Source of the DNA: a virus
Reading direction: 5' to 3' (one strand)
IMG/VR virus record: IMGVR_UViG_3300022853_001424
Location: 1 to 26,087 of that record
Length of the DNA: 26,087 nucleotides
Part shown: positions 1,473-25,812 of the stretch, one piece after another
How positions within the stretch are numbered: the stretch's first letter is position 1
Layout: every line of letters begins with the position of its first letter
The notes under the pieces: generated by a model
Told to the model about the DNA's origin: nothing
The model's database searches: none
The model's input: the letters and a program-made list of their open reading frames with translations, nothing else
Translations under genes and position numbers: made by a program

Positions 1473-3014
1473 ATGGCATGGGATGACAATGCGTGGGCTG
1501 AATACGACGCCAAGAATCGGGCCCTGATCACCCCCTACCAGTTCCCGCATCACGGCTTGCACCGCCCGCGCAAACGGGTGCAGCCCATCTTGCGGCACCT
1601 CCCGCGCAGGCCGCTCTTCACTGGATTGATCGGATCCAATCTGTGGGACAACCTGCCGAAGCAGTGGCCGCATTTCGCGGCGCGAACAACAATTGCGTCT
1701 CAGGGGAAATACCTGCCCTTCATTCCCTGGGAGGTCCAGCTGGATCTGGTCCGAATGATTCGGAGCACCCAGAACGTTTACTGCCTGAAATCAAGGCAAA
1801 CCGGCGTTTCCGAAACGGTCATCAATTACATGCTGATGATGGCCATTGAAAACCCAGCTTGGGTGGGCATCGTTTTCAGCAAGACCGGCGAGGATGCGTC
1901 AGAGCTGGCGGCCCGCATCAAAGGCCAGGCGGCCAGCCTTGGTTCCTTCTGCCCGCCCCTGCCAAAGGATTCTGCCCGCAAGCTGCAATTCCTTGGCCGT
2001 GGATCGCTTCACTTTCTGCCGCCCACTGAACGAGCGGCCAGGGGAATCCCATCGGCCTCCATGGTCCTGTTCGATGAGGGCGCCTTCATTGAGAGGCTGA
2101 GCGGGATTGAAACCGGCGCCATGCCCACCCTGAGCCTCCTGGGCCCCAGGGCGCGGGCGGTGTGGGTCAGCACCCCCAACGGCCGCAGCGGCCGCTTCCA
2201 TGAGCACTGGACCACTGATCACGGCGAAATCCCGCTAGGGCCGGCCACGGTGAACGGGATTCCAACCCTGGCCCGTTCACCCGATGGTCAGTTCGGCAAG
2301 GTTGCGATCCACTGGAGCCAGCATCCAATCTTTGCCGCTGACCCTGACTACCAGGAGAAGACCAAGCGGAAGTTTCAGCTCACCCAGCAGCGCTACCAGC
2401 AAGAGTTTGAGCTCGACTTCACTGCCACCGATGCCGAGGTCTACCCGCACGAACTGATCGAGGCTGCTGAGGCCATCGGTGCCCTGGATGATCCAACCAG
2501 CGGGAACGTCTACGTGATCGGGATCGATCCCAACGGCGGCGCCGATGATGAGTTCGTGACCACGGTTCTGGACGTGACAGCCAGCCCCTGGCAGGTGGTG
2601 GCCCGGTTCAACGACTCGCGCCGCAGCAGGGATTACGGCCTGCAGCGCAGCGCCCGGCTGATTGACCAGTTCGCCCCGGAGCTGATCGTCATCGAGAAGA
2701 ACGGCGTGGGTGCTGCGGTGGCCGAGAGCCTGGCCCGGCTTCGCCCTGGATACCCGATCGAAGAGGTTGCCACCAGCCGGCCGTCGAAGGTCGCTATGAC
2801 CGATCGGGTGCTGCTGCTGCTGGAGCAGGGCGAGCTGGGCCTGCCGCCCAACGACATCTACGGGGAACAGATGCGAGTCTTCCGCCAGCACCCAGACGGC
2901 ACCCGCGAGGCCGCCGCTGGCGCGCACGATGATGCCGTGATGTCTCTGGCCATGGCCTGCGAGGCCGGCGCCCGCACCCGGCCGATGGTGGCCGAATGGG
3001 TCAACATGACCTAG
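1473..3014 (+). CDS. terL: Terminase large subunit (ATPase and nuclease)
   Basis: This is the motor that pumps phage DNA into the prohead and cuts the concatemer. The N-terminal ATPase has a Walker A-like loop, KSRQTGVS (about residues 106-113), a Walker B, MVLFDE (197-202), and a coupling motif, WVSTPNG (231-237). The C-terminal RNase H-like nuclease shows acidic residues in IGIDPNG (near 352), IVIEKNG (near 408) and HDDAVMS (near 483). The 513-residue length is normal for TerL. It starts at ATG 1473, just after the small subunit. It belongs to the Terminase_6-type large subunits. No frameshift or missing motif is apparent. Confidence 0.95.
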   Translation: MAWDDNAWAEYDAKNRALITPYQFPHHGLHRPRKRVQPILRHLPRRPLFTGLIGSNLWDNLPKQWPHFAARTTIASQGKYLPFIPWEVQLDLVRMIRSTQNVYCLKSRQTGVSETVINYMLMMAIENPAWVGIVFSKTGEDASELAARIKGQAASLGSFCPPLPKDSARKLQFLGRGSLHFLPPTERAARGIPSASMVLFDEGAFIERLSGIETGAMPTLSLLGPRARAVWVSTPNGRSGRFHEHWTTDHGEIPLGPATVNGIPTLARSPDGQFGKVAIHWSQHPIFAADPDYQEKTKRKFQLTQQRYQQEFELDFTATDAEVYPHELIEAAEAIGALDDPTSGNVYVIGIDPNGGADDEFVTTVLDVTASPWQVVARFNDSRRSRDYGLQRSARLIDQFAPELIVIEKNGVGAAVAESLARLRPGYPIEEVATSRPSKVAMTDRVLLLLEQGELGLPPNDIYGEQMRVFRQHPDGTREAAAGAHDDAVMSLAMACEAGARTRPMVAEWVNMT

Positions 3015-4425: not shown

Positions 4426-6336
4426 TTGGCCATCGGATTCCTTCAGGATCAGGCGCCTGATTCCAACCGGATGGATGGGCCGCTGTTGAACGTGCTCACC
4501 GGCATGGGCACGTCCAACGACCGCAGCCAGGCCACTGGCATCCAGGGCGGCCGTGCTCTGGGCGAGGCAGAGATCAATGCGCTCTATGAGCAATCCTGGC
4601 TGCTCCGCCGGGTGGTTGAGAAGATTCCCATGCAGGGCACCCGCAGCGGCTGGGACCTAGGCCTGGGCGATGAAACCACCACCACCGAGCGCAGCAAGCT
4701 CGATGATCTGGTTAGTTGGACAGAAGAGCTGAAGCTGCCGCAGGCCGTGACCACTGCCGCCACCTACGCCCGCCTGTATGGCGGTGGTGCGCTGGTGGTG
4801 TTGGCGGATGATCGCACCCCCATCGACAAGCCGCTCAACCTCAAGCGGCTGCGCAGCATCAAGGGGTTCTACCCCATCGATCGCTGGAGGTTGTACCCGT
4901 CTGCAGGTTGGACGGGCATCGGTTCGCCTGAAAGCTATTGGTTTGAAACACAGCAGGATCGCGACCTGACGAAGGCTTCAGGCGATCCAGGCCTGGCTGA
5001 TGCGTTGCAGGTCGATATTCATGCCAGCCGCATCATCCGCTTTGAGGGCCTGCCCTGCAGCTGGCGCACCATGCAGTCGCGCCAATGGTGGGGGCTGTCG
5101 GTGGTCGATCTGTGCTGGGACGTGTTCAAAAGGTTCGAGACAGGCCAGCAGAGCGCCGCGGACATCTTGCATGATTTTGATCTGGTGGTTCACACCCTCC
5201 CGAACCTGCAGCGGATTCTGGACGCGGGCGGCGAGCAGAAGCTGCGCGAACGGCTGCGAGTCAACAGCATGGCCAGGTCTGTCTATGGGGCCTACGTCCT
5301 GGGCGAGGGCGAAACCCTGGCCAACCTCAGCCGATCAGCCGCAGGCATCGCCGACATCCTCGAAGGCCTGAAGGGCGAGATCACCGGTGCCTCAGGACTG
5401 CCCCACACCATTCTGTGGGGTGAAAGCCCCAGCGGCATGGGAGCAGATGGCCGCAGCGAGCAGGCCGCGTTTGGCAATGACGTGGCTGATTGGCAGGACC
5501 GCGATCTCCGGCCGCCCCTCCGCCGAGCGTTTGAGCTGGCCATGGCCTGCTCCGATGGGCCGTGGAAGGGGAAGGATCCACCGGAGAGCTGGGCGGTGGA
5601 GTTCCGCCCCAACTACACGCCAACAGAAGATGAGCAGGCTGATTTGCGCGGCAAGGTGGCCAACGCTGATGTTCAATACATCCAGGCCGGTGTGCTGTCG
5701 ACCAACGAGGTGGCGCTGGCCCGCTTCGGCAAGCCGCGTTTCAGCCTCACGACGACGTTGATCGATCGCGAGGAAGATGGCAGCCTTAAGCAGCCAGAGC
5801 CTCCGGCCGGCGCTGCTGGCGATGAATCCGAGATTGAGTTCGGCGAAAGCCTGGCCGAGCAGGAGGCCGATCCAGGCGGTGCCCCCCCTGATCCAGAGGA
5901 AGAGCCCCCCTCGAGCCGGGGTGATCAGGCTGACGCCTGCTGTGACGATTGCGAGGCCCGATCCCAGGAGCTCGCCCTTTCAATCACGGCGAACCGCCGC
6001 CGCCGCAAGCAGCGGAAGGACGCCCCGGCCATCCCCCGCGCTGACGCGGCCGGCGACGTGATCGAGCGCTGCGGGGTGAACATCCGAATTGATAGCCAGG
6101 GCCTCGGACGCATCCTTGCCCCCTATGGGCAGGAGCTGCCCCATCCGGTAGCGGTGGGCCCAGACATCAGCGGCGCCTGGGAGGTGTTTGAGCCATCGAC
6201 TGGCGCCTACCTCCTGGCGATCGGCCACCAGCACGTCCGCGGCATCCGCGATTCAATCGGGCCAGGCCCCACGATCCGGCAGATCGATGGCACTGATCTG
6301 GTGGCCCTGGGGGCCCGCTGTGACGCCTATTCCTGA
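4426..6336 (+). CDS. Phage portal protein (DUF1073 type) with C-terminal extension
   Basis: The portal is the dodecameric ring at the capsid vertex through which DNA enters and leaves. Residues 40-430 carry the features of the PF06381 (DUF1073) portals: SWLLRRVVEKIP, ARLYGGGALVVL, IKGFYPIDRWRLYP, the glycine-rich LPHTILWGESPSGMGADG loop, and a long helix before FRPNY. It starts at TTG 4426, just after an in-frame stop at 4402; ATG 4471 is the next option. A proline- and acid-rich linker (about 455-505) and an Arg-rich stretch lead to an extra C-terminal module (about 545-636) of unknown function, making it longer than most portals. Proteins with this fold are now often labelled Acb1-like at the N-terminus, but no 2H phosphodiesterase HxT/S pair is present. 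Confidence 0.92.
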   Translation: MAIGFLQDQAPDSNRMDGPLLNVLTGMGTSNDRSQATGIQGGRALGEAEINALYEQSWLLRRVVEKIPMQGTRSGWDLGLGDETTTTERSKLDDLVSWTEELKLPQAVTTAATYARLYGGGALVVLADDRTPIDKPLNLKRLRSIKGFYPIDRWRLYPSAGWTGIGSPESYWFETQQDRDLTKASGDPGLADALQVDIHASRIIRFEGLPCSWRTMQSRQWWGLSVVDLCWDVFKRFETGQQSAADILHDFDLVVHTLPNLQRILDAGGEQKLRERLRVNSMARSVYGAYVLGEGETLANLSRSAAGIADILEGLKGEITGASGLPHTILWGESPSGMGADGRSEQAAFGNDVADWQDRDLRPPLRRAFELAMACSDGPWKGKDPPESWAVEFRPNYTPTEDEQADLRGKVANADVQYIQAGVLSTNEVALARFGKPRFSLTTTLIDREEDGSLKQPEPPAGAAGDESEIEFGESLAEQEADPGGAPPDPEEEPPSSRGDQADACCDDCEARSQELALSITANRRRRKQRKDAPAIPRADAAGDVIERCGVNIRIDSQGLGRILAPYGQELPHPVAVGPDISGAWEVFEPSTGAYLLAIGHQHVRGIRDSIGPGPTIRQIDGTDLVALGARCDAYS

Positions 6337-7718
6337 TGGCTGATCGTTCCGTTGAACTGCTCGAGCATCTCGATCTGGAGATGCGTGGCCTGGAGGATCA
6401 GCAGCTCAAAAAGCTGCAGGGCATCTTCAACGAGGCCCTAAGCCGCACGATCCGCTCCCTGATCGACCGGCTGGAGAAGATCGACGCCCAGCCGATCTAC
6501 GATCCCAAGCGCACCCCAGGCGCCTTTCAAGGGTCAACGCCTGCAGGGCCCGAGATCATCACCCCGCTGCAAAAGAACCAGGCCAGCCTCTACCTCCAGG
6601 GCCAGCTGCTGCAGGATCTGCAGGTGATCATCGGTCGCTTCCCGCAGGACAAGGCCGCCGGCCGGGCCCTGGACACTGAACTGGTGGAGCTCTTCCGCCG
6701 CGCTCACGACCTGGGCAGCGAGTACGCCATTCAGCTCAGCCAGAACATGCTGGAGCCTGCGGCCAAGCTCTCGGCCACTCACCCGCTGATCACCCAGGCC
6801 GGCCAGGTGCCGCCGCCCGCAGCGCCTGCAGCACCAATCACCCCAGGCGGCGGCTACCAGGAAGGGCAGTCATTCACCCGGCTGGTCAACATCGGCGCAA
6901 CGGTCGCCGCCGCCGAGCGTGATTTCAAGAGCCTGTCGGAGAACTACCGCCGGCAGCGCGATGCAGCCACCAGTGAACGGGTGGTCGCGGCGAAGGATTA
7001 CTTCTATCGGTGGTGGCGTGACTGGGGCGATGCGGTGCAGGTGGAAACAGCCACCCAGCTGGCAACGGGCCTCGATAGCAGGGCGCTGGCCCGCACCCTC
7101 AAGGCAAGGCTGCCGAACATCAATGAGGCCTTCCGTAACCGGGCCGAGACAGTGGCCCGCACCGAAACCCACATCGCGGCCGGGGAGGCCAGAGAGCGCA
7201 CGTTCCGCCGGGTTGGAGCTGGCTTTGTGCGCTACATCACCACGGCAGACGATCGGGTGTGCGAATGGTGCGCTCCACGGATGGGTTGTTTATACTGGGC
7301 AGGCAGTATTAAGACGCCGATTCATCCAAATTGTCGTTGTGCATTGTCACCTATTACCCTTGAATCGCTGGTGATTCAGAATAGCTTAGCGGCCAAGGCG
7401 TCAGAGCGCTGGGAGCAGGAGCAGCAGGCCCTGGCTGCCGTCACCCGCACCAAGTATGAGCAGGCCAACAGCAGGCCATGGCGGCCAACCGGTGGAGGTG
7501 ACCAGCCAAGAGGCGCGGGCGATTTCCCGCTGATGGAGAAGACCAGCCTGCCGGCCACCCAGCGGCGCCGTGGGCCCGGTGCAGCGGTGGCGAATGCTGG
7601 CGCGCAGGCATGGCCTGCAGGCGATCCGGTGTGGGCTCCTGGGCGGGGCTGGCTGGATCAGGGGGCCCGGGTGGCCTATGAAGCGATGGTCAGAGAGGTT
7701 GCTGAGATAGCGGAGTGA
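6336..7718 (+). CDS. Head morphogenesis protein, phage Mu gpF-like
   Basis: The stop of the portal gene and this ATG share one base (TGATG), implying coupled translation. The C-terminal half has the Mu F family signature: an ARTETHIAAGEARE helix (about 273-286), TTADDRVCEWCAP (about 302-314) and IHPNCRC (about 329-335), a Cys/His set likely to bind metal. Such minor head proteins sit at the portal vertex and help assemble the procapsid. The N-terminal half is helical with a Pro/Ala-rich linker near 155-170. A patch at 7286-7385 covering the HPNCRC motif has about 43 % GC with A/T-ending codons, unlike the rest of the gene. The last 29 bases overlap a convergent tiny gene. Confidence 0.9.
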   Translation: MADRSVELLEHLDLEMRGLEDQQLKKLQGIFNEALSRTIRSLIDRLEKIDAQPIYDPKRTPGAFQGSTPAGPEIITPLQKNQASLYLQGQLLQDLQVIIGRFPQDKAAGRALDTELVELFRRAHDLGSEYAIQLSQNMLEPAAKLSATHPLITQAGQVPPPAAPAAPITPGGGYQEGQSFTRLVNIGATVAAAERDFKSLSENYRRQRDAATSERVVAAKDYFYRWWRDWGDAVQVETATQLATGLDSRALARTLKARLPNINEAFRNRAETVARTETHIAAGEARERTFRRVGAGFVRYITTADDRVCEWCAPRMGCLYWAGSIKTPIHPNCRCALSPITLESLVIQNSLAAKASERWEQEQQALAAVTRTKYEQANSRPWRPTGGGDQPRGAGDFPLMEKTSLPATQRRRGPGAAVANAGAQAWPAGDPVWAPGRGWLDQGARVAYEAMVREVAEIAE

Positions 7719-7942: not shown

Positions 7943-8022
7943 TCGCCTTCAGGGCTTGGCAAGCTCGCGCTCAAAAGCGGCAACGCATCGGCAATCTTCG
8001 GCGTGAGCCAGCAGCAGATCGC

Positions 8023-8085
8023 TTTGCTCACCGGAAAATTAGGAGCGCAGCGAGTAATTTTTCCGAGTGCAGCAACTTGTTAAGT
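8023..8085 (-). repeat. Imperfect inverted repeat, attC-like, at the methyltransferase 3' end
   Basis: TTTGCTCACCGGAAAATTA (8023-8041) pairs imperfectly with TAATTTTTCCGAGTGCAGCAA (8055-8075), leaving single unpaired bases in one arm. Just outside, GTTAAGT (8079-8085) fits the integron core GTTRRRY and contains the methyltransferase stop codon, as in gene cassettes. The matching RYYYAAC on the other side is missing, so this is at best a degenerate attC. Confidence 0.35.
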
Positions 8086-9246
8086 GCTTTTGGGTTTGAG
8101 AACACGAAAAATGGATTGCCCGACTTTTTTCCCAAGCTCAGCAGGGACTGCATTTCCAAGTTGGCGCATTACTTCACCCCAAGAGCCTTCAAAGTCAAAG
8201 TCATCAGGAAATGTTTGAATTCTAGCGCTTTCACGAACAGTAAAGTAACGAACACTTCCATCTTCAAAACGAATCATATTCTCGCCTCCCGGAATACCAT
8301 GCCCTCCAGCCTTCAACGCCTTGGAAGGCTCGTCAATATAACTGCCTGTATGGCCGGGATAGATTTTGGCACCACCTTTAAAAACATGATGGTTAAATTC
8401 ATTAGCTTTTTTAGATTCAGGGTTAGGGAGATCTGAAATGGCATCGCGAACTGTGACCCATGGCTCCAACTCCGGTTCAAACATTCCATATTTTTGCTTT
8501 AACCTTTCTACTCTATTCTCTGTTTTTTCGTCCATTTTTGAGCATTGAACTTTATGCTTTTTCCAGTATTCTTTTGTAACCCATTTACTCCAGAGCAAAG
8601 CGTCCTCGGAGTGTGTTGACTGAGGAAACGACCAGTTTGCATCAACGTCTGACCTGAAACCAACGATAAATACCCGCTCTCTTTTTTGAGGGACGCCATA
8701 GTCTGCTGCATTTACAAGACGATACAATACGTTATATTCGAGATCTGCATACTTATTCTTAGTATGGTGTTTCTCTAATCGCTCTCGATGCTTTTCCCAT
8801 TCTTCATTCCTTTTCTTTTCTATCGAGGGATATTGCAATTGTAATACTATATATTCAAAATATTCGAAAAAGCTTTTTCTCAACAAGCCTTTTACATTTT
8901 CAAATACGAATGCTCTTGGTTTTTTCTCTCTAATAGCCCTAACGGCTTCTGGAAACATATCTCTGGCGTCATCGTGGCCATTCGCTTTGCCGCCAAGGGA
9001 GAAAGGCTGGCAAGGTGGCCCACCTGATATTAATTCTATTGTTTCTGGTACGCTTAAATAATCGAACTTGGTTACATCACCTTCATATACTCCAGCCCCC
9101 CGAGTAAGCAATTTATTTGCTCTTAGAGTTCGGCAAGCATCTTTGTTAAATTCAACTACTGCCTTTGGAGTAAAGCCGGCGCTGTGAAGCCCTAACGCTA
9201 ACCCACCTGCACCTGCGAACAATTCAATTGAAGACATTTTAGCCAT
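8080..9246 (-). CDS. DNA C5-cytosine methyltransferase
   Basis: The 388-residue enzyme transfers a methyl group from SAM to C5 of cytosine in a specific DNA site. The motifs appear in the usual order: ELFAGAGGLALGL (I, 8-20), GGPPCQPFS with catalytic Cys79 (IV), ENVKG (VI, 116-120), QKRERVFIVG (VIII, 187-196), a target recognition region (about 200-335), RESARIQTFPD (IX, 338-348) and QLGNAVP (X, 362-368). All are intact, so it should be active. No nuclease gene lies beside it, so it is probably a solitary methylase that protects phage DNA. It is clearly AT-richer than its surroundings, indicating recent acquisition. A copy of the phage leader lies about 40 bases upstream rather than at its start, as if the gene had been inserted behind it; AAGAAGG at about 9259-9265 may serve as its ribosome-binding site. 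Confidence 0.95.
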   Translation of the reverse strand: MAKMSSIELFAGAGGLALGLHSAGFTPKAVVEFNKDACRTLRANKLLTRGAGVYEGDVTKFDYLSVPETIELISGGPPCQPFSLGGKANGHDDARDMFPEAVRAIREKKPRAFVFENVKGLLRKSFFEYFEYIVLQLQYPSIEKKRNEEWEKHRERLEKHHTKNKYADLEYNVLYRLVNAADYGVPQKRERVFIVGFRSDVDANWSFPQSTHSEDALLWSKWVTKEYWKKHKVQCSKMDEKTENRVERLKQKYGMFEPELEPWVTVRDAISDLPNPESKKANEFNHHVFKGGAKIYPGHTGSYIDEPSKALKAGGHGIPGGENMIRFEDGSVRYFTVRESARIQTFPDDFDFEGSWGEVMRQLGNAVPAELGKKVGQSIFRVLKPKST

Positions 9247-9267
9247 TATCTAATTAACCTTCTTAAC

Positions 9268-9299
9268 ATTGTAACTAGCGATTTCTGGAGAGCGGTGGG
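9268..9299 (-). promoter_or_regulatory. Displaced leader copy and TACAAT box before the methyltransferase
   Basis: The leader copy CCCACCGCTCTCCAG lies at 9285-9299 (minus-strand reading), followed by TACAAT (9268-9273), which could be a -10 box for the methyltransferase. No -35 box is evident. Elsewhere the leader touches the start codon; here 38 bases separate the two. Confidence 0.5.
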
Positions 9300-9549: not shown

Positions 9550-9741
9550 TCAGGCAAAGCGGCCGGCCACGTTCCAATCAGGGTTTGGTTCGCCAGCCCT
9601 GCGGTAGTTTTCTTCAAACAGAGCATTCAGATTGCGAGCACCCAATCCTTGATGGCTTCGACAAATAAAGATTGCGCCTTCAATTGCGTGGTTGCTCATT
9701 GAATCAAGGTTGTAATCAAGGGCGATAAAAGCTGCGGGCAT
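9550..9741 (-). CDS. Small leftward protein of unknown function (63 aa)
   Basis: It starts at ATG 9741, one base after a full copy of the leader, and ends at the edge of the next intercistronic element. The product has a hydrophobic start (MPAAFIALDYNLDSM) and a middle reading AIFICRSHQGLGARNLNALF, which looks like a compact alpha/beta fold rather than a membrane segment. No family is recognised. Its start region (9739-9804) is repeated almost exactly in front of the 55-residue gene at 18865-19032, so the two genes are probably regulated together. Confidence 0.65.
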   Translation of the reverse strand: MPAAFIALDYNLDSMSNHAIEGAIFICRSHQGLGARNLNALFEENYRRAGEPNPDWNVAGRFA

Positions 9742-9804
9742 GGCTGGGGAGCGGTGGGGCGCGAAGGCCTCTCGCCTTCATTCATATTGTAGCACGTTGC
9801 TAAC
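9739..9804 (-). promoter_or_regulatory. 66-bp start cassette: operator, -10 box, hairpin, leader (copy A)
   Basis: Read leftward it holds GTTAGCAACGTGCTAC (9789-9804), TACAAT (9786-9791), a GAAGGC/GCCTTC hairpin (9763-9779), the leader (9743-9758) and the ATG. It matches 19030-19095 at 65 of 66 positions. The operator-like site overlaps the stop codon of the upstream gene. Confidence 0.8.
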
Positions 9805-10048
9805 AGCAGGGATTATTCTCTTCCGCCCATTCCGCTGCCTCTTGCTCTGTCGCAAAAGGCCCAGCCCAGGTAACGATGCTGGCTTGCTCTCCCAACGGGC
9901 CGAGCGGGTGCCTGCGGAAAAAGCTGGCGCCTTGCTTCTGGATTGCTACCGCGTCAAGACCGTCCGCCAGGTCACCCCAGAAAAGGATGGCCGCTATCCA
10001 GCCATCAGGAGCAAGGCCTACATCTTCCGCCCAGCTGGCTTTGGTCAT
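9800..10048 (-). CDS. Leftward accessory protein, unknown (82 aa)
   Basis: It starts at ATG 10048, which overlaps the TGA of the upstream gene by four bases (ATGA), so translation is coupled. Sequence such as GWIAAILFWGDLADGLDAVAI, and a C-terminal region with TEQEAAEWAEE, suggest a small soluble alpha/beta protein. It ends in two cysteines (NPCC). Its stop codon lies within the operator-like site of the next gene. I do not recognise the family. Confidence 0.65.
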   Translation of the reverse strand: MTKASWAEDVGLAPDGWIAAILFWGDLADGLDAVAIQKQGASFFRRHPLGPLGEQASIVTWAGPFATEQEAAEWAEENNPCC

Positions 10049-13391: not shown

Positions 13392-15595
13392 AGAGCTCTG
13401 ACGGCCTGCGGAATCGCCTGGCGGCCGTGGAAGCGTTGCTGCCAGTCCGGGACCACCCCGGTCCCAGCCCGGCCCCTCGATGGGACCATGCCGATCAGGT
13501 GAGCTTGCTGGTGCAGCAAGTCATGGCGGAGGCCAGGCCCGGGGCGTTGGTGCTGGATTGGCAGCTGGCGCCGCGTGGCGTGGTGGCAGGGCGGATGGCT
13601 GTGGACGGCCTGCTCTACCGGTTTCGCTGCGATGCTGACGTGGTGGCGTTTCGCCCGGCGTGGGACGGGGTGAATGAGCGCAGCTGGGAGATCCGATCTG
13701 ATTCGTTTCTGCAGCTTCGGGCCCCTGAACAGCGCCTGGATTTTCGTGGCGGCGCGGTGCGGGCGGGGAAGAAGTGCAGCGTTGGCTATGGCTGCGGGAA
13801 CAAGTGCATCACGGTGCGGAAGGAGTGCCTGGTCAGGCCAGGCAGTGCGATCGGGAAGGGTCGCCTGAAGAGGCTGCTGGCCCTGGCTGCTGGAGGTGAT
13901 AAAGCCGCGGCCGGCGCGGCCCAGCGGGTGACTGCCGGCCGTGGGTCCAAGGCGGCAGAGCTGCGTCAGGGGCGCAATGTGAAGCGGCTGGAGGCCTTGC
14001 TGCAGCGGCCTGAGATTGCCGAAATGGTGCGGACCGGCAAGGTGCCCGAGAGCAAGCCAAAAGCTGGCGCTGTGCGCGACCTGTCGCCGGATGAGATCGA
14101 GTTTGATCCTGCGCGCTTCCAATACAAGATCAAAGCGACAGCGACCACCGGGGAGGTGGGAAGCCTTTCGGGCGTGAAGAAGTGGGCCCCGAACCTGGCG
14201 GGGGTGATCAGCGTCTGGCAGGACGCCGATGGGAAGACCTACGTGGTCAATGGTCACAACCGCCTGGCCCTGGCCCGCCGCCTGGGCGCCGAGGCGGTGA
14301 CCGTGAGATACCTGGACGCCCCGACCGCGAAGGACGCCCGGGCGATCGGCGCCATGCAGAACATCGCCGAGGGCGCCGGCACACCAATGGACGCGGCGAA
14401 GTTTTTCCGGGATACCGGCATTCAAACGCCTGCTGACGTAGAGGCCCGTGGGTTGCCGCTTAACAGCGGCCAGGCGGATAAGGGCCTGCGGCTCAGCAAG
14501 CTGCCCGATGACGTGTTCAAGGCGGTGGTGGATGGTGATCTGAGCATCAACCGCGGGGCGATCATCGGCGGCTCTGGCCTGGAGGCAGGCAAGCAGCAGG
14601 AGATTTTCAAGATGGTCAGCAGCCGGCGGGGGATCACCGACAAGACCCTGAGCGAGCTGGTGGATCACGCCCGCATCAGCGAGCAGCAGACCCAGACCAC
14701 CTTCGACCTGTTCGGTTCAAGCGAGGTGTCAAAGAGCAACCTGATCACCCGCGCCAAGCTCTCGGCAGGCCTGAAATCGAAGATCAGCCGAGAGAAGCGG
14801 CTATTTGGCACGGTCAGCAAGGCCCGATCAGCGGCCTCGTTGACGGAGAAAGCCGGGAACGTGATCAATCAGGAGGCCAGCAGCAGGGTGACCGCCGAAG
14901 CCGGGCAGGCGCTGCAGGTGTTCGAGCAACTCAAGAGCACCGCCGGCCCGATCAGCACCGCGCTGAACCGGGCAGCTGATCGGGTGGAAGCAGGAGAACC
15001 AGAGAGCGAAGTGCGCAAAGAGCTTGAATCTGACGTGTTCGCCGCGGTGGAGTTTGAGCTGGAGGCCGTTGGCCTGCGCCCGCGTAAAAGCGCCTTTGAC
15101 CGGGCCGATGGCGATTCGGCCGACTATTACCGCAACAACCCAGAAGCAAGGGAGAAAAAGAATGCTCTGCAGCGAAAGATCAACCGCCGCCCAGATCGGC
15201 TTTGGACGGAGCGGCGGCGGCGCGGAATGGCTGGCCAAGGTGGCCCGGATCTGAGCCACACGGAAGATGATCGGCTGATCAAGGAAGACCCCAAAGCGAA
15301 CCGGGCCCGTAATGGCCACGACGGCCGCAGCACCAAGCGGGCTGACAGCCTCCAGGAGCGGATTGATCGAGCGAAGGCAAAAGCGCCCCCTGGCCAGATG
15401 GGGCTGTTCGGTGCTGCCGGCGGCGGCAATGACATCCCCTGCGGGGCTTCGCACATCAGCCGGGCCAAGACTTGCCGGATTACGTCAGGAGCTCCGGCAG
15501 CACCGGCGCCAGCCGTGAAGGCTGAGAAGGCCGCGGCCACCACGGCCCCACCACCTTCTCCCCTGCAGCTTCCCGCTCCGCCAGCTCCAGGTTGA
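13388..15595 (+). CDS. ParB-like domain protein with Cys motif; 3' end probably replaced
   Basis: A multi-domain phage protein of 735 codons. Near residues 127-146 it has a compact four-Cys motif (KKCSVGYGCGNKC, then KEC). Residues 230-345 look like a ParB/DdrB-like domain: LSPDEIEFDP, then VNGHNRLALARRLGAEAVTV, then AMQNIAEGAGTPMDAAKFF. Such domains occur in phage polyvalent or virion-associated proteins. The rest is helical, with a Lys/Arg-rich region (about 590-690) and a second Cys motif, CGASHISRAKTC (about 682-693). The last ~38 residues (Ala/Pro-rich) are the complement of the restriction enzyme's 3' end, so the native C-terminus probably ended or continued near 15480 and was cut by that insertion. 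Confidence 0.75.
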   Translation: MKSSDGLRNRLAAVEALLPVRDHPGPSPAPRWDHADQVSLLVQQVMAEARPGALVLDWQLAPRGVVAGRMAVDGLLYRFRCDADVVAFRPAWDGVNERSWEIRSDSFLQLRAPEQRLDFRGGAVRAGKKCSVGYGCGNKCITVRKECLVRPGSAIGKGRLKRLLALAAGGDKAAAGAAQRVTAGRGSKAAELRQGRNVKRLEALLQRPEIAEMVRTGKVPESKPKAGAVRDLSPDEIEFDPARFQYKIKATATTGEVGSLSGVKKWAPNLAGVISVWQDADGKTYVVNGHNRLALARRLGAEAVTVRYLDAPTAKDARAIGAMQNIAEGAGTPMDAAKFFRDTGIQTPADVEARGLPLNSGQADKGLRLSKLPDDVFKAVVDGDLSINRGAIIGGSGLEAGKQQEIFKMVSSRRGITDKTLSELVDHARISEQQTQTTFDLFGSSEVSKSNLITRAKLSAGLKSKISREKRLFGTVSKARSAASLTEKAGNVINQEASSRVTAEAGQALQVFEQLKSTAGPISTALNRAADRVEAGEPESEVRKELESDVFAAVEFELEAVGLRPRKSAFDRADGDSADYYRNNPEAREKKNALQRKINRRPDRLWTERRRRGMAGQGGPDLSHTEDDRLIKEDPKANRARNGHDGRSTKRADSLQERIDRAKAKAPPGQMGLFGAAGGGNDIPCGASHISRAKTCRITSGAPAAPAPAVKAEKAAATTAPPPSPLQLPAPPAPG
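13768..13835 (+). repeat. Cys-motif module, copy 1
   Basis: 68 bases with 7 mismatches to 25728-25795, in the same frame. Encodes KKCSVGYGCGNKC and what follows inside the ParB-like protein. Confidence 0.85.
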
Positions 15596-18233
15596 GATCG
15601 AGCAGGTTGCTGAGGATGTCTTCGTTGGCCTTCCAGCCATAGGCCTTCAGCACCAAAGCATCGAGCGCTTGATGGAGCTTGGCAAGCTGGCTGGCGGGTT
15701 CGTTGAAGTAGGCGTTGTAGAGGTCGGTGATGCCCCAGTTCCGCGCCACCATCACCTCGTTGCGGTAGTCGTTGAGGGCTGTCATCGCCTGGCGGATCTG
15801 CTGCACCAGCTCAGGCGTGACGATCTGAGGGAAGGGGAAGGTCTCGAATATAGAGTCGTGGGTGTAGGCGATGTCGCCCTTGAGGGTGCCTTTCTGCGCG
15901 TGCATCCAGATGCGGTGTACGGAGGAAGTCAGCAGGCCCACAATATAGAAATCATAGCTGGCGAGCACGACATTCTTTTCTCCAGGCAGCCAATCCTTCT
16001 GGAATGGAATGAAAACAGCCCACTTGGAAACTCGGGGAACGGCAAAGTAACTTTTCAGTGGTTCGATAGCTGCCCGCATCGCTGGTCGTTTCTCCCCATA
16101 CCGCCACCAGTTCACCCGCGTGGTTTCGCGGCGGTTCTCCATGCGCTGGGGCCTCACCAGGTCTTTCACTTGCCGAAAGGGCTCGGCATAGGCTTCCGCC
16201 ACTTCCAGTGTGAGATCGTTGAAGTCGATGATCCAGCGGTCGGGCTGCCCCAAAGGACGCTTCGCCAGGTTGGTGCCCATCGAGAACGGCTTGACCACCT
16301 CGGCGTTCCTTGGATCAGCAGCCAACCACTCCGCCGCTGTCGCAGGGTCAACGTTGAAACCCTTGCCCACCGGAATCACCCCCTGAAAGCAATAGCCCTT
16401 GTTTGCCACCAAGGCACTGGCTTCACTCACATCCACGGTTGAGCGCAAACTGGTGTTGATGGTGGAAACATCCTCTCCATCCAGCCGGTAACTACCCGCA
16501 GCATCGCGGCTCCAGTTCACGATGCTCACGTGCACGTGGGCCTCCCCGGACCACGGCTGGGTTGAGATCGCCGCATGGATGTGACCGCCGTTGTCGCGGA
16601 TGTAGTCGAGGGAGGCCCGGCGGCTCTTGCCATGGCGAATCGAGTTGGTGGCTACCAGCCCAGCCCGGCCGTCGGGCTGGAGGTTGTCGTGGGCCAGCCG
16701 GAACCAGTAGGTGCAGAAGTCCACGCTGTCGTGCACCTCGGGGAACCGCTGAAAGACCCGCTCGACGTACTCATCCCCGAGGTTGAGCCGCATGTGTTTC
16801 CCACCCAAGAACGGCGGGTTCCCCACATATGCATCGGCCTCCGGCCAGGGGATGAACAACGCATCTGCGACCCTGATGTTTGCGTCGAGGTTGTCGAGGG
16901 GTAGATCCCGTTCTGTAAGCCCCAGGCGATCGTTGGCCACCTTGCGGGCAATCATCAGCGTCACCCGTGCCAGCTCCACCGCGAACGGGCTGGTGTCCAT
17001 GCCGAAGAACTGCAGTGGCGTCACCAACCCCAGCACTGCCTGGACCTTCTTCGCCTCTGAACTGCGGCGTTCAGCGATGCGCCGCAGGATCGTGACTTCC
17101 AGGTCCTTGACGGCGTTGTAGCCCATGTAGAGGAAGTTCCCGGAACCACAGGCCGGATCGCAGACGCGGTACTGCGTCAACGCCTGCCGTAGGCCCTCCA
17201 GCTCAGCGATGCTGCTGGCCTGCGCGACCCGCTCTTCCCACGGCTCAACGATCGTGGGCCGGATGATCTGCAGCATGTCCACCTCACTGGTGAAGTGCTG
17301 GCCGTGGGCGTGGCGGGTGGCGTCATCGCTGCTGGCTTCGAAGATGTTGCCAAAGATGCTGGGCCGCACCCGCTGCCAATTCTCCTCGGCGCTGGCGCTC
17401 AGCAAATCCAGCTCATCGGAGAGCAGCTCAAGCCTTGGGATGTGGGAGAAAAGCCCGCCGTTGAAGTAGGGCGTTCCCCGGAACTGCCCGCCGGGGGTGG
17501 TGCCGGGGGTGTTCATCTCACCGAACAGGTAGCCGAGCACGTCGTAGCTGCTCTGCCCCCCCCGACAGGCATCAAGAGCCTGGGTGAACTGCAGATTCGG
17601 CAGCAAGCCCCGATCCTCAGCGAACAGGCTCAGAACGCACTGGAGCACGAACCGCTGGGCCTCCAAGGCCGTGAAATCGCCGCTCTTCTCGCCCCGCTTG
17701 CGCAACCGACCGAACAGCTCCCCCATGCTCCGGGCCTGAGCTTCAGTTACCTCGATCTGGTTGAGGCCGAAGTGGACCGGCTGCTCAGTCTTGCTGAGGA
17801 AGGCCAGAGACGACGATTGGCTAGCCAGATCCTCCACCCGCAGCTTGACCAGGGGCTCATCCACCAGCTGGTTGAAGTCGTAAACCCACAGCTCATCGAA
17901 GTTGCTAAGCACCGAATAGTCCGGCTTGGGTGCGAGGTAGATCCAGTAGCGCTGCAGTTGCGGGAAGTGGGGCTCCAGAGCTTTGCCCCGGCTCTTCATC
18001 TCGATCAGAACCGTGGCCCGTGTTCCCTCGATCAGGGCGTCCGCCTTGCCCATGCCACCGGCCAGGCTGCCCTTGGGAATCTTGCGCTCGAAAGTGGTGC
18101 CCGCCTCTACAGAGTCAGCCCAGCCCCATGCCTGCAGCAGCCGATTCACGTAGGTCTGGGCCTCGCTGTCCTCATCCCCACGGATCGAGGCCACCCAGTG
18201 GGCGAAGTTCTGCAGGGCCTGGGGGGTGCTCAA
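15480..18233 (-). CDS. MmeI-like type IIL/IIG restriction-modification enzyme
   Basis: A single protein that both cuts and methylates DNA. The N-terminal nuclease has a D-x12-E-x-K signature (Asp65, Glu78, Lys80 in KADALIE and VLIEMKS). A helical spacer follows (about 150-290). The adenine-N6 methyltransferase has SAM motif I, DPACGSGNFLY (359-369), and catalytic motif IV, NPPFLGG (472-478). The C-terminal third (about 600-890) would be the target recognition and final helical domains. The 917-residue length matches MmeI (about 920). It starts at TTG 18233; CTG 18248 is the only alternative before a stop. The last ~25 residues look atypical and may come from host-gene sequence. It lies antisense in the structural cluster, probably as acquired defence cargo. 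Confidence 0.92.
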   Translation of the reverse strand: MSTPQALQNFAHWVASIRGDEDSEAQTYVNRLLQAWGWADSVEAGTTFERKIPKGSLAGGMGKADALIEGTRATVLIEMKSRGKALEPHFPQLQRYWIYLAPKPDYSVLSNFDELWVYDFNQLVDEPLVKLRVEDLASQSSSLAFLSKTEQPVHFGLNQIEVTEAQARSMGELFGRLRKRGEKSGDFTALEAQRFVLQCVLSLFAEDRGLLPNLQFTQALDACRGGQSSYDVLGYLFGEMNTPGTTPGGQFRGTPYFNGGLFSHIPRLELLSDELDLLSASAEENWQRVRPSIFGNIFEASSDDATRHAHGQHFTSEVDMLQIIRPTIVEPWEERVAQASSIAELEGLRQALTQYRVCDPACGSGNFLYMGYNAVKDLEVTILRRIAERRSSEAKKVQAVLGLVTPLQFFGMDTSPFAVELARVTLMIARKVANDRLGLTERDLPLDNLDANIRVADALFIPWPEADAYVGNPPFLGGKHMRLNLGDEYVERVFQRFPEVHDSVDFCTYWFRLAHDNLQPDGRAGLVATNSIRHGKSRRASLDYIRDNGGHIHAAISTQPWSGEAHVHVSIVNWSRDAAGSYRLDGEDVSTINTSLRSTVDVSEASALVANKGYCFQGVIPVGKGFNVDPATAAEWLAADPRNAEVVKPFSMGTNLAKRPLGQPDRWIIDFNDLTLEVAEAYAEPFRQVKDLVRPQRMENRRETTRVNWWRYGEKRPAMRAAIEPLKSYFAVPRVSKWAVFIPFQKDWLPGEKNVVLASYDFYIVGLLTSSVHRIWMHAQKGTLKGDIAYTHDSIFETFPFPQIVTPELVQQIRQAMTALNDYRNEVMVARNWGITDLYNAYFNEPASQLAKLHQALDALVLKAYGWKANEDILSNLLDLNLELAEREAAGEKVVGPWWPRPSQPSRLAPVLPELLT

Positions 18234-18299
18234 CGGGAAAGGCCTCAGGCCCGCCGATTGTGACTGGGATCAATTCCTGATGGGATTTCGGGGAAACAG

Positions 18300-18430
18300 T
18301 TACAGCAAGGAGAGATGCTTAGGCCCAGTAGCAGGGCTCGGTGTGTCACAGCTGCTGCCAGCCGGCAAAGGCTCAGCCACCACGCGGTAAAGCCGGGCCC
18401 GCTCCTCATCGATGCGGCAGCGGTGCGCTG
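18300..18430 (-). pseudogene. Possible 3' remnant of a foreign gene upstream of the restriction enzyme
   Basis: On the minus strand a frame ending at TAA 18300 reads IDEERARLYRVVAEPLPAGS, then CDTPSPATGPKHLSLL. It looks protein-like but loses coding character to the right of about 18430, where the rightward ADP-ribosyltransferase fragment begins. It may be the tail of the gene that stood upstream of the restriction gene in its former home. This is inferred from composition and order only. Confidence 0.3.
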
Positions 18431-18594
18431 CGGTGTTGATGGAGTTCGCCCTTGGCCACGGCGGCCGCGACATCTCAGGCCTGAGCGAGTTCCGCAATGA
18501 AAAAGAGGTGCTGATCCCCGCGGCAGAGCGCTTCACGGTGCTGAGCGTGAAGGATGACGGCAAGATGATCCAAGTCAAGGTCAAGCGCGCCTAA
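18412..18594 (+). pseudogene. C-terminal fragment of an ADP-ribosyltransferase-like domain
   Basis: The residues GGRDISGLSEFRNEKEVLIP, followed by AAERFTVLSVKDDGK, match the C-terminal end of VIP2/C3-type ADP-ribosyltransferase folds: a glycine turn, a serine, the ExE catalytic glutamates just before VLIP, and a final FxV strand. The NAD-binding first half (the Arg and STS motifs) is missing. Upstream sequence stops resembling it at about 18427. It is therefore the 3' stump of a rightward gene whose 5' part was separated or lost when the restriction enzyme segment was inserted. Phage virion proteins often carry such domains. TAA at 18592-18594 ends the frame, four bases before the next gene. 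Confidence 0.55.
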
Positions 18595-18598
18595 CACC

Positions 18599-18823
18599 GT
18601 GCCAACATCAAACCAACAGCAGGGCAGCAGCATGGCCAAGAGCAACCCCCCCAGCAGCACTCTCGGCGACCGGATGGCTAATGCGACCTTCAAGTGGGAA
18701 GGCGACCTGCAGGCCGCCCCTGAACGCCGGCAAGATGGTTCTGGCATCAACTGGGCCAAGGTGGCATCTGAAACCAAGGAGATGCTTCGCCTGAATCCGC
18801 AGAACAGAAAAAAGCCCCGGTAG
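18599..18823 (+). CDS. Small phage protein, unknown (74 aa)
   Basis: Starts at GTG 18599, or at ATG 18632, which gives 63 residues. The product has a polar Ser/Gln-rich beginning, then MANATFKWEGDLQAA and INWAKVASETKEMLRLNP, and a basic end. It lies four bases behind the ADP-ribosyltransferase fragment on the same strand and was probably co-transcribed with the original gene. Its last codons overlap the terminator of the leftward block. Confidence 0.5.
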   Translation: MPTSNQQQGSSMAKSNPPSSTLGDRMANATFKWEGDLQAAPERRQDGSGINWAKVASETKEMLRLNPQNRKKPR

Positions 18824-18864: not shown

Positions 18865-19032
18865 CTAGGGCGGGGCCAAGGGCGCCAATCCTTGGATGCC
18901 CAACTCTTGGGCCATCGCCAGCAGGCTTGAGCGGGAGAGAAAGATCAGCTGGAACCAAAAGTCTCCCGTGACAGGGAGCTCGTCGGCAGCCATGCAAAGC
19001 ATGATCTCTTGGCGCAGGCGGTCATCTGTCAT
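18865..19032 (-). CDS. Small leftward gene with 66-bp start cassette (55 aa)
   Basis: The frame begins MTDDRLRQEIMLCMAADELP and ends QGLAPLAPP before TAG at 18865-18867. ATG 19032 sits one base after the conserved leader, and the 66-bp region in front is nearly identical to that of the gene at 9550-9741. The product has an acidic start, a hydrophobic middle (GDFWFQLIFLSRSSLLAMA) that is more like a buried helix than a clear membrane span, and a Pro-rich end. A palindrome and an intrinsic terminator follow. No family is recognised. Confidence 0.6.
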   Translation of the reverse strand: MTDDRLRQEIMLCMAADELPVTGDFWFQLIFLSRSSLLAMAQELGIQGLAPLAPP

Positions 19033-19095
19033 GGCTGGGGAGCGGTGGGACGCGAAGGCCTCTCGCCTTCATTCATATTGTAGCACGTTGCTAAC
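19030..19095 (-). promoter_or_regulatory. 66-bp start cassette (copy B)
   Basis: Contains the operator-like site GTTAGCAACGTGCTAC (19080-19095), TACAAT (19077-19082), the GAAGGC/GCCTTC hairpin, the leader (19034-19049) and ATG. It differs from copy A (9739-9804) at one base. Confidence 0.8.
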
Positions 19096-19109
19096 ACCCC
19101 ACAAGGGGA

Positions 19110-19334: not shown

Positions 19335-19376
19335 TGTGCTGGGGAGCCTTTCCACTCACCGTAGCACTTTGCTAAC
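19335..19376 (-). promoter_or_regulatory. Third operator-like site and short leader
   Basis: GTTAGCAAAGTGCTAC (19361-19376) differs at one base from the two other copies. TACAAT is replaced by TACGGT, so this site lacks the -10-like box and might act as an operator within an operon. The leader is reduced to GGCTCCCCAGC. Confidence 0.65.
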
Positions 19377-19378
19377 GA

Positions 19379-19627
19379 CTAGAGGCCCAGCAGCAGGGCC
19401 GGGTCAATGTTCAGCAAGATGCAGATGCTCCGAATCTGCCCAGGCTTTGCCGACCGCTCGCCCGAGCAGATACGGCTCACCGTGCTTCGATCCACCTCCA
19501 GCTGCTCTGCCAGCACCGCCTGGCTGATCTCCCGATCGCGCAACATCACGGCCAATCGAGCACCAAACAGCTGACGAATCAAAGCGTCAGGCAGGAGAGT
19601 TGGCACTGGTGCGTTTTTGGCAACCAT
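19379..19627 (-). CDS. Xre/cI-type HTH transcriptional regulator (82 aa)
   Basis: Residues 22-80 form a HTH_3 fold: ARLAVMLRDREISQAVLAEQ, then LEVDRSTVSRICSGERSAKPGQI, then a final helix ending DPALLLGL. There is no C-terminal peptidase or oligomerisation domain, so it is Cro-like in size. It heads the second leftward block and is divergent from the DUF2213 gene, with only 49 bases between them. An operator-like site lies directly behind its stop. It is the best candidate to bind GTTAGCAANGTGCTAC, but no sequence evidence links it to that site. Confidence 0.85.
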   Translation of the reverse strand: MVAKNAPVPTLLPDALIRQLFGARLAVMLRDREISQAVLAEQLEVDRSTVSRICSGERSAKPGQIRSICILLNIDPALLLGL

Positions 19628-19676: not shown

Positions 19677-20957
19677 GTGCTGTTGGAGTTCAGGTTCGAT
19701 CGCTCAGCAATTGGCAACTGGCAGGAAACCCCTGAAGGCTTCCTGCGCATTCGTGCGACCTTCGCCCGAACTGGTTGCCAGACCTATCGAAACTTCGATG
19801 GATCGCAACGTGTTGAGTATCGCCCTGAATCCGAGGTGGCCAGAGAGGATTCCTTCCTCTCCCTTGGTGGCCTCCCGGTCACCCTGGAACATCCGCCGCA
19901 GCTGCTCACCCCCGACACCGCTCGGCAGTACCAGCGCGGCGCCAGCGGCACCCACGTCACCTACGACAACGGTTTTGTTCACGGCACCGTGGTCTTAACG
20001 GACCGCGAGGCCATTGAGGCCGTGAAGCGTGGTGATGCCACTGAGCTCAGTGTTGGCTACCGCTGCGAATACGACGCAACCCCTGGCGTCGCACCCGATG
20101 GCACCCGTTTCGACGGCACCCAGAGGTCGATCAGCGGGAACCATCACGCCATCACCAGCAAGGCTCGCGCCGGCTCTGAGGTGCGCTTGCACTTCGACAG
20201 CGCCGATCAACCGTCCTGGGTTGGCATCAGCACCGAATCATTCCAAACCCCTACCGAGGAGCCCGACATGGCCGCCCGCACCGCCCGCACCGACATGAAG
20301 CCCGAGGCTCCTAAAGGTGGAATGCCCAAAGACGAAGACGAAGAAAAGCCCATGGCCTCTGATGAAGACATGGAAGACATGGAGGAAGACGACGACGACG
20401 AAGAAGGGATGAGCTTCCCTCCCGTCAAGCCGAAGGCCAAGGCCAAAACGGATTCCGCCGACAACCGCACCGTTCCCTGGGCCGTCTACAAGGCCTCCCT
20501 CGATGACCTGGCCGCGGCTGAGCAGCGGTTCGACGCCCTGGAGGAACAGATCACTGAAATCGAAAAGCAGCTGGACGCTCGCACCGACAGCTCCATTGAC
20601 CAGCAGCGGCTCGACGCCCTGGTGGCTGAACGGGTTGAGGTGCTCGACAAGGCGGCCGCCATCACCGGTGCGCGCAGTCGCCACGACGGCCTGACGAACC
20701 GCCAGGTGCAGGAGCTGGCCCTGAAGTCCGGTGGCGTGAAGGTGGATCAGATCGAAACCCGCAGCGACGACTACGTGGCCGCCCGTTTCGACGCGGCCCA
20801 TGAAGCGGCCGCCCCGCTCGTTTCCGGCACCGCCGAGGCCTTGGCCCTGCAGCTGCAGGGGCTCACTACCCCGCGCAGTGACGCGGCCCGCGACAACATC
20901 GCCGCCGCCGAGCAGGAGATGGCAGACACAACCTCGAACGCCTGGAAAAACTCCTGA
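19677..20957 (+). CDS. DUF2213 prohead protease fused to scaffold
   Basis: Residues 1-175 follow the DUF2213 family: an N-terminal beta unit, RIRATFARTGCQTYRN, SLGGLPVTLEHPPQLL, GFVHGTVVLTDREAIEAVKR, ELSVGYRCEYDATPG (putative catalytic Ser near 124) and ISGNHHAIT (His near 155-156). A long Asp/Glu-rich linker (about 215-250) follows, then a coiled-coil scaffold-like C-terminus (about 275-426). This is the usual maturation protease plus scaffold layout directly upstream of capsid genes. Start GTG 19677 was the only start giving the full domain; TTG 19683 is close. No strong ribosome-binding site is seen. Confidence 0.88.
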   Translation: MLLEFRFDRSAIGNWQETPEGFLRIRATFARTGCQTYRNFDGSQRVEYRPESEVAREDSFLSLGGLPVTLEHPPQLLTPDTARQYQRGASGTHVTYDNGFVHGTVVLTDREAIEAVKRGDATELSVGYRCEYDATPGVAPDGTRFDGTQRSISGNHHAITSKARAGSEVRLHFDSADQPSWVGISTESFQTPTEEPDMAARTARTDMKPEAPKGGMPKDEDEEKPMASDEDMEDMEEDDDDEEGMSFPPVKPKAKAKTDSADNRTVPWAVYKASLDDLAAAEQRFDALEEQITEIEKQLDARTDSSIDQQRLDALVAERVEVLDKAAAITGARSRHDGLTNRQVQELALKSGGVKVDQIETRSDDYVAARFDAAHEAAAPLVSGTAEALALQLQGLTTPRSDAARDNIAAAEQEMADTTSNAWKNS

Positions 20958-21615: not shown

Positions 21616-22560
21616 ATGAGCCATCGAACCGATGCCGACGCTTACCAATCCGGGGCGTTTCTGGCCGACCAACTGCAGCACCTCATCCCTGGAGTGCTGC
21701 GCAAGCCCTACGCGGAGATCGTCTACCCCCGCATCTGCCCAGTCAGCTATGAGGTGGACCCGGGCGCAACGTCCATCAAGCGCACCATCTGGGACCGCAC
21801 CGGTGACTTCGATCTGATCGGCGACGCCGCCGACGATCTGCCCCGGTCTGGCACGAAGGTGGGTGAAATCGTCAACGGCATCAGAACCTTCGGCGGTTCG
21901 TTCGACTACACCCAGGATGAACTGCTGGCCGCAAAGATGGCCGGCGTTTCGCTCACCACTGAGCGGGCCGACGCTGTGCGCGACGCCTACGAACGCCGCA
22001 ACAACCTCACATGCTTGTTTGGCCGCGGCGGCACGGGCCTGAAGGGGATGCTGAATCACCCGGCTATCTCCCGCGTTGCTGTCACCGGCAACAACACGGA
22101 CGCCTGGTTTGACGACGACGACATCACCCCGCAGCAGATGCTCGATCTGCTGAACTTCGGCGTCACCGCGATGCGGGCCAACAGCCGCCAGGTGGAGCAA
22201 CCCAACACCCTGTTGATGGCTGAATCTGACCACCGCATTGTAAGCACCACCTGCCGTTCAACCACCGACAACACATCGGTGCTGGAGCTGTTCCTCAAGC
22301 AGAACCCCGGCATCACTTCGGTGGAGCCGATCAACGAGCTCGATCCAGCCAACAGCGGCGGCAACCTCACCGCCAAGCGGATGCTGTTCTACCGGAAGGA
22401 TCCGACCAAAGGCAAGTTTCACATCCCCTTGAAGCTCACCTTTTTGCCCCCGCAGCCCAGAAACCTGAAGTTCATTGTCCCTTCGATGAGCAAGATCGGC
22501 GGCTTCATCCCTGACTTCCCGCTGGCCTTCATCTACATCGAAGACGGCGGCAACACCTGA
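21616..22560 (+). CDS. Major capsid protein (DUF2184, HK97 fold)
   Basis: 314 residues. Preceded by a strong GGAGG ribosome-binding site at about 21602-21607, fitting high expression. The protein shows the DUF2184 pattern: YAEIVYPRICPV, then GATSIKRTIWDRTGDFDLIG, KVGEIVNGIRTFGGSFDYT, a loop with GMLNHPAI, and a C-terminal region ending MSKIGGFIPDFPLAFIYIED. HK97-fold proteins of this family form the icosahedral shell. Placement after the protease/scaffold and cement genes supports it. Confidence 0.9.
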   Translation: MSHRTDADAYQSGAFLADQLQHLIPGVLRKPYAEIVYPRICPVSYEVDPGATSIKRTIWDRTGDFDLIGDAADDLPRSGTKVGEIVNGIRTFGGSFDYTQDELLAAKMAGVSLTTERADAVRDAYERRNNLTCLFGRGGTGLKGMLNHPAISRVAVTGNNTDAWFDDDDITPQQMLDLLNFGVTAMRANSRQVEQPNTLLMAESDHRIVSTTCRSTTDNTSVLELFLKQNPGITSVEPINELDPANSGGNLTAKRMLFYRKDPTKGKFHIPLKLTFLPPQPRNLKFIVPSMSKIGGFIPDFPLAFIYIEDGGNT

Positions 22561-25680: not shown

Positions 25681-25812
25681 ATGAACCGTCGCTACCGAGC
25701 TCTACAACAGCGCATTGACGCCGCCCGGAAGAAGTGCGGCGTTGGCTACAGCTGCGGCAGCACGTGCATCACGGTGCGGAAGGAGGGCCTGGTCACCCCC
25801 GATCCGCGATGA
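25681..25812 (+). CDS. Tiny Cys-motif protein (43 aa)
   Basis: The frame starts MNRRYRALQQRIDAARKKCG and ends VTPDPR before TGA 25810-25812. Residues 17-36 repeat the four-Cys motif of the ParB-like protein at 13388-15595, with three of the four cysteines kept and the last changed to Gly. The DNA shows about 90 % identity over 68 bases between 13768-13835 and 25728-25795, pointing to recent copying of the module. A free-standing Cys module could bind zinc or iron-sulfur, or may be a non-functional leftover. Nothing shows which. Confidence 0.5.
   Translation: MNRRYRALQQRIDAARKKCGVGYSCGSTCITVRKEGLVTPDPR

Follow-up and report, generated by a model that had tools for sequence, protein, structure and literature searches.

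Replacement of part of a modular head-cluster gene by a host-type MmeI-like restriction-modification gene in an S-CBS4-like cyanophage

How a complete restriction-modification (R-M) gene came to lie inside a gene of a phage head cluster, and what was lost in the process, is the question raised by a 26,087-bp IMG/VR virus record (IMGVR_UViG_3300022853_001424, here called the window). The head gene cluster of the window is on the plus strand, where profile matches identified the terminase (1473–3014), portal (4426–6336), MuF (6336–7718), head protease (19677–20957) and major capsid protein (21616–22560) genes. These virion genes surround a modular plus-strand gene, P0001 (13388–15595, 735 aa), which is placed between the MuF and protease genes together with the R-M gene P0002 (15480–18233, minus strand), the two overlapping by 116 bp. 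The closest named-phage match to the capsid protein was Synechococcus phage S-CBS4 (45%), and the window phage is an S-CBS4-like cyanophage, a virus of picocyanobacteria. No phage integrase was found above the cut-off in 19 records, which, as several of these are fragments, is no more than an indication of a lytic life style.

A preliminary description of the locus had proposed that an MmeI-like enzyme was inserted into a phage gene, splitting an ADP-ribosyltransferase (ART). Our reading, to which we assign a probability of about 85% with the inferred route and role included, is that a host-derived Type IIL R-M gene replaced part of the modular head-cluster gene, and that its alleles recombined within the phage group.

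The MmeI-type enzyme and its host homologues

Type IIL enzymes such as MmeI cut about 20 bases from their site and methylate one strand. The product of P0002 (917 aa, TTG start) matched all four Pfam MmeI domains above the cut-off, was covered by the PADLOC Type IIG model over residues 4–901, and matched MmeI (PDB 5hr4) over residues 18–871 with an E-value of 8.6e-47, which confirmed the proposal of a complete MmeI-type gene within the phage gene. As in the MmeI family, a single chain combines an N-terminal PD-(D/E)XK nuclease, a helical spacer, an N6-adenine methyltransferase, one recognition domain and a C-terminal bundle. The sequences DPACGSGNF and GNPPF are present, which we take to be methyltransferase motifs I and IV. 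In an alignment with MmeI, in which P0002 residue numbers were counted by hand, D65, E78 and K80 correspond to D70, E80 and K82, the nuclease residues of MmeI according to PMC4833311, and the nuclease D...E-x-K is thus kept. K785-D787 align to the MmeI pair E806-R808, and with a K-D pair at this position, according to the same paper, base 6 is read as G:C. Only 8 of 50,697 phage records contained matches to the enzyme, and none of these covered more than 80% of P0002. Unlike MmeI, P0002 is phage-borne, carries a tail of approximately 18 residues read from phage DNA and has a recognition domain exchanged between sister phages; its activity is predicted.

A search of genome_contigs yielded 24 enzyme loci in all, more distant relatives included. 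Picocyanobacterial homologues were 77–92% identical to the enzyme in the best segment, the closest being those of CS-1328 (92%), UW140 (88%, partial), CS-1325 (82%), Cruz-8D1 (79%) and a LacPavin MAG (77%), and by this similarity the enzyme is of picocyanobacterial origin. Within the host family the gene is patchy, as only 4 of 251 genomes gave a match at 1e-100. Some host copies are broken, with two stop codons in Synechococcus CS-1328 (L042) and only fragments in Synechococcus sp. 1G10 (L054). Its orientation against that of the late genes, its absence from related phages and its host origin make P0002 resemble phage "moron" genes and phage-borne methyltransferases, which are also extra genes. 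Unlike these, P0002 replaced a module inside a gene, and it represents a complete cutter and marker.

The interrupted gene and the junctions

The front of P0001 (13388–15539), consisting of a ParB-like domain and Cys motifs, is broken at 15539. Residues 222–532 matched phrog_21 (E = 2.7e-54), whereas the ParB-like PHROG matches were weak (E = 0.006–0.013), the motif being otherwise recognised by eye, and no Pfam model matched the front. An AlphaFold prediction of residues 1–573, based on nine sequences, had a pLDDT of 43. The first Cys motif (CSVGYGCGNKCITVRKEC, 13767–13835, plus strand) is phrog_33618-like, and the last (CGASHISRAKTCR, 15440–15478, plus strand) aligns to residues 1125–1162 of the homologue in the related contig L019 (E = 0.002). 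A 90% copy of the DNA of the first motif is present at 25727–25795, outside any long open plus-strand frame, and is a decayed copy.

No relative of P0001 was found in genome_contigs. A search with the capsid protein gave 18 related loci, of which 12 cover the P0001 gene and one (L017) reaches only slightly into it, with the remaining five being either fragments without this gene or the window's own relatives. In all 12 contigs covering the gene the homologue is one open frame without the enzyme, with seven different lengths: 663 aa (3 loci), 812, 898, 1068 (3 loci), 1144, 1327 (2 loci) and 1411 aa. The first 566 residues are conserved at 64–66% identity, and beyond approximately residue 566 the homologues vary and carry copies of the phrog_33618 Cys motif. 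These contigs (L010–L014, L016, L018–L022 and L026) suggest that S-CBS4-like cyanophages have a modular gene family in the head cluster, in which Cys motifs act as linker between the conserved front and exchangeable ends. In one of them (L020, slot at 6780–7600) the gene ends early, after 812 aa, and behind it lies an open frame of 107 aa and of no assigned kind on the minus strand (7047–7370). In the relatives, the variable slot is bounded on its right by a conserved small gene of 63 aa, which the window has at 18632–18823 (plus strand). Neither S-CBS4 nor any of the 14 related records has the enzyme; four of the five records in the window's own group carry it, and the remaining one ends at window position 15195.

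It had been predicted that an uninterrupted relative would contain the ParB-like part, a Cys motif and an ART in one gene, and such a gene was found in L019. Its 1411-aa frame has a ParB-like front and Cys motifs, lacks the enzyme, and ends in a nearly complete ART (PF01129, E = 6.4e-10 at residues 1222–1395, profile positions 46–203 of 222), directly preceded by the Cys motif that CGASHISRAKTCR matches, and its downstream neighbours are the small gene and the regulator gene also present in the window. In the window, a frame at 18421–18594 (plus strand) contains the last approximately 55 aa of an ART, with 45% identity to L019 residues 1353–1410 in BLASTP (58 aa, E = 4e-12). This frame comprises only the last strands of the ART and is preceded by a stop codon, and positions 18433–18591 matched only positions 175–214 of the 222 in the Pfam ART profile (E = 3.4e-5). 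The suggestion that the C-terminus of an ART lacking its first half stands here was therefore borne out, with the missing front half holding most of the profile. A complete ART fold carries R, STS and ExE motifs, and with profile positions 175–214 only, the remnant does not represent the complete fold of an active ART. There was no separate complete ART in the window or in its four sister contigs, all of which are fragments; the ART tail matched a sister contig as sole match in viral_contigs, and gave five weak matches (E of 0.06 or worse) in named phages.

The limits of the host-type DNA were placed by DNA identity to host copies, which starts at 15540 (15544 in one copy) and ends at 18237–18268. 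The left junction is located at 15539/15540, because host identity ends there and the tail of P0002 is the complement of phage linker DNA. The stop codon and last approximately 18 codons of the enzyme (15480–15539, minus strand) are phage DNA, and where intact host enzymes end in GPWAPA or similar, the window enzyme runs on as GPWW-PRPSQPSRLAPVLPELLT, so that its native last 2–3 residues are replaced by approximately 18 residues read from phage DNA. Conversely, the P0001 frame stays open beyond 15539 and reads the complementary strand of the enzyme gene as far as 15595. The preliminary description had recognised this effect and placed it near 15480, but the phage frame continues approximately 60 bp further to the right. 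On the other side, the 18234–18268 stretch upstream of the enzyme (minus strand) is host-like by DNA identity to host loci, the host-derived part reaching 18262–18268, and the right junction lies between 18268 and 18421. That the insert carried some of its old surroundings is thus shown for approximately 35 bp upstream of the enzyme.

The remaining stretch at 18269–18420 is of ambiguous origin, giving weak and conflicting matches. A leftward remnant had been described at 18300–18430, but no gene could be identified there: searched as protein against 251 host-family genomes, it gave many weak matches, the best of them at E = 5.8e-4 in a single genome, and none pointed to a clear gene, and as DNA the 18240–18425 region gave short matches in 300 genomes. 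Those at 18380–18422 fall in one conserved 128-aa open frame in the three loci examined (84% over approximately 43 bp), and PF03496 extends over this region on the opposite strand, interrupted by a stop codon.

The preliminary proposal of an insertion is retained in that a host-type enzyme lies within a phage gene; the event was, however, a replacement and not a clean insertion, as the front half of the ART is gone. A host defence gene is caught here in the course of moving into a phage, with its left junction defined to the base and its right junction to approximately 150 bp, and the price of its gain was the loss of the ART module. There was no repeat flanking the junctions within 15350–18640, and no transposase gene was called among the window frames scanned. 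With these results, and the lack of an integrase above the cut-off in the 19 records, we rejected the enzyme as cargo of a transposon or integron. As neither a transposase-like gene in the frames searched nor a junction repeat was found, we infer non-homologous recombination during infection as the likely route.

The ART remnant could instead be a separate and unrelated small gene, with the 735-aa gene ending naturally near 15595 and the enzyme lying between two genes. The presence of an ART at this place in only one of 12 relatives (L019), the other 11 having no ART match and ending in other modules, fits this alternative, as does the wide range of gene lengths in the relatives (663–1411 aa). 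However, the P0001 codons from 15540 onwards are the complement of enzyme DNA, the 18421–18594 frame has only the last strands of an ART after a stop codon, and L019 has the Cys motif, linker and ART in that order in one frame, followed by the next gene, and we therefore consider a separate gene very unlikely. The preferred reading is also consistent with the absence of any enzyme-free contig with the same gene end: the phage DNA that borders the junction on the left, used as exact pattern, was found in two sister contigs only, both with the enzyme. Against the preferred reading, no near-identical phage without the enzyme was found, and as only one of the 12 relatives has an ART at this place, a fully L019-like ancestor of the window's gene can only be presumed.

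Virion-packaged ARTs are known from phage T4 Alt and from MuF-ART fusions. The ART of L019 is likewise an ART of a phage head cluster, and matches the last part of the head-protein family phrog_595, to which the MuF neighbour of P0002 also matches with its own part; unlike in these systems, it is joined to a ParB-like carrier, and the window holds only a remnant. The product of the modular gene also resembles the polyvalent proteins described by Iyer et al. 2017 (PMC5512222), being large, multidomain, located among head genes, ParB-like and equipped with variable modules, such as the ART end in L019. In contrast to those polyvalent proteins, among which that paper has a DdrB-type ParB family, it varies at its C-terminus with repeated Cys motifs (phrog_33618), and its ParB-like assignment is by weak PHROG matches. 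By analogy with polyvalent proteins, the interrupted protein may be a virion-packaged effector carrier, and the phage would have given up an injected ART in return for an R-M enzyme. Both the enzyme family and effector carriers of this sort are known kinds; the variant seen here is that one has taken the place of the other and that the recognition domain is switchable. A limited literature search found no publication in which a Type IIL enzyme of a phage had displaced an effector module.

Enzyme alleles in sister phages and possible role

Three contigs cover the left junction: the window, G001 (L002/L005) and G002 (L003/L006), and all three share the phage-derived chimeric tail, while the right side is the same in the two contigs that cover it (2112/2116 bases). 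The enzymes themselves differ. The L006 enzyme (L006:125–2881) diverges from that of the window over residues 433–825 approximately, with DNA identity down to 44% per bin, and is identical after approximately residue 825. The G001 enzyme equals that of the window at residues 1–198 and from approximately residue 430 onwards (except for one bin), and equals L006 in between. Residues 481–785 of the window enzyme (15879–16793, minus strand), comprising the target-recognition region and the end of the methyltransferase domain, are exchanged in L006, and the recognition regions (570–800) of the two are 46% identical, with the nearest host recognition regions among the 24 loci being those of L031 (64%) and L042 (55%). 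As the position of MmeI R810 is occupied by A in the window and by R in L006, the two enzymes are likely to read different DNA sequences. The L006 enzyme is preceded by 124 bp that have no match in the window or in the host loci and that gave nothing clear in 300 genomes.

The alleles recombined or diverged within the phage group after insertion, with assembly chimerism as an alternative for the mosaics, as these are metagenome contigs. The whole join could be an assembly artefact that combined a phage contig with enzyme DNA of a host. The phage contigs all come from metagenome assemblies, the alleles look mosaic, and assemblers apparently struggled here, as several contigs end in or near the enzyme (L004 at 15195, L007 at 17635, G001 exactly at 18233 and G002 approximately 120 bp beyond). 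Such an artefact is nevertheless extremely unlikely, since three contigs agree on the left junction to the base, phage-derived tail included, two agree on the right side, and none of the host copies found is the same as the phage copies of the enzyme.

If active, the enzyme would methylate its sites in both phage and host DNA and cut unmarked DNA, as predicted from its sequence. Its likely role is self-methylation, which would protect the phage genome from host enzymes of like specificity, and/or restriction of competing phages by cutting; for a lytic phage, such self-methylation seems more useful than lasting protection of a lysogen. An exchanged recognition domain would change methylation and cleavage together, and an active enzyme would thus represent a phage R-M system whose specificity is switched by recombination in a natural population. 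More speculatively, the end of this virion gene may be a variable "effector slot", where injected modules are exchanged for a host R-M enzyme and the recognition domain is re-shuffled to track the specificities of hosts and rivals, a scheme that we regard as tentative and rather improbable.

Alternatively, the enzyme may be a non-functional passenger, carried transiently in a slot prone to recombination and without benefit to the phage. Methyltransferase motif I of the L006 enzyme reads GPGN instead of GSGN, which may indicate an impaired allele, host copies decay too, and the enzyme is opposite in strand to the late genes. Against this, there are three full-length open phage alleles, the residues aligned to the MmeI nuclease residues are kept, and exchange of the recognition region with the frame kept open would suggest selection, which makes a mere passenger doubtful. 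The dN/dS over residues 1–480 of the enzyme was 0.059–0.10 in eight comparisons, which may at least partly reflect selection in hosts before transfer.

A second replacement and other features of the window

Comparison with L003 identified a second replacement in the window, of 1,261 bp (8021–9281), containing an AT-rich C5-methyltransferase gene (8080–9246, minus strand, 42% GC vs 62%). At the corresponding position L003 has 120 bp of other sequence (5772–5891), and the flanks compared, of 71 and 109 bp, are identical in both; the C5-methyltransferase gene likewise arose by replacement and not by clean insertion. By eye, the 120 bp of L003 form part of a small open frame on the minus strand. 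Furthermore, the G002 contig has a weak second methyltransferase-like match at 1388–1504 (E = 1.9e-4), located in a 949-aa frame.

An Rfam search of the window found nothing. The left edge contains a 154-bp tandem repeat (5–314, 94%) inside an HTH-repeat gene. The palindrome TAGCAnnnTGCTA is present in three exact copies (9790–9802, 19081–19093 and 19362–19374), with a chance expectation of 0.25 when one mismatch is allowed. Two of the three copies are contained in a 67-bp repeat (9739–9805 and 19030–19096, 99%), and the third adjoins a Cro/C1-type regulator gene (19379–19627, minus strand); these palindromes are probably operators.
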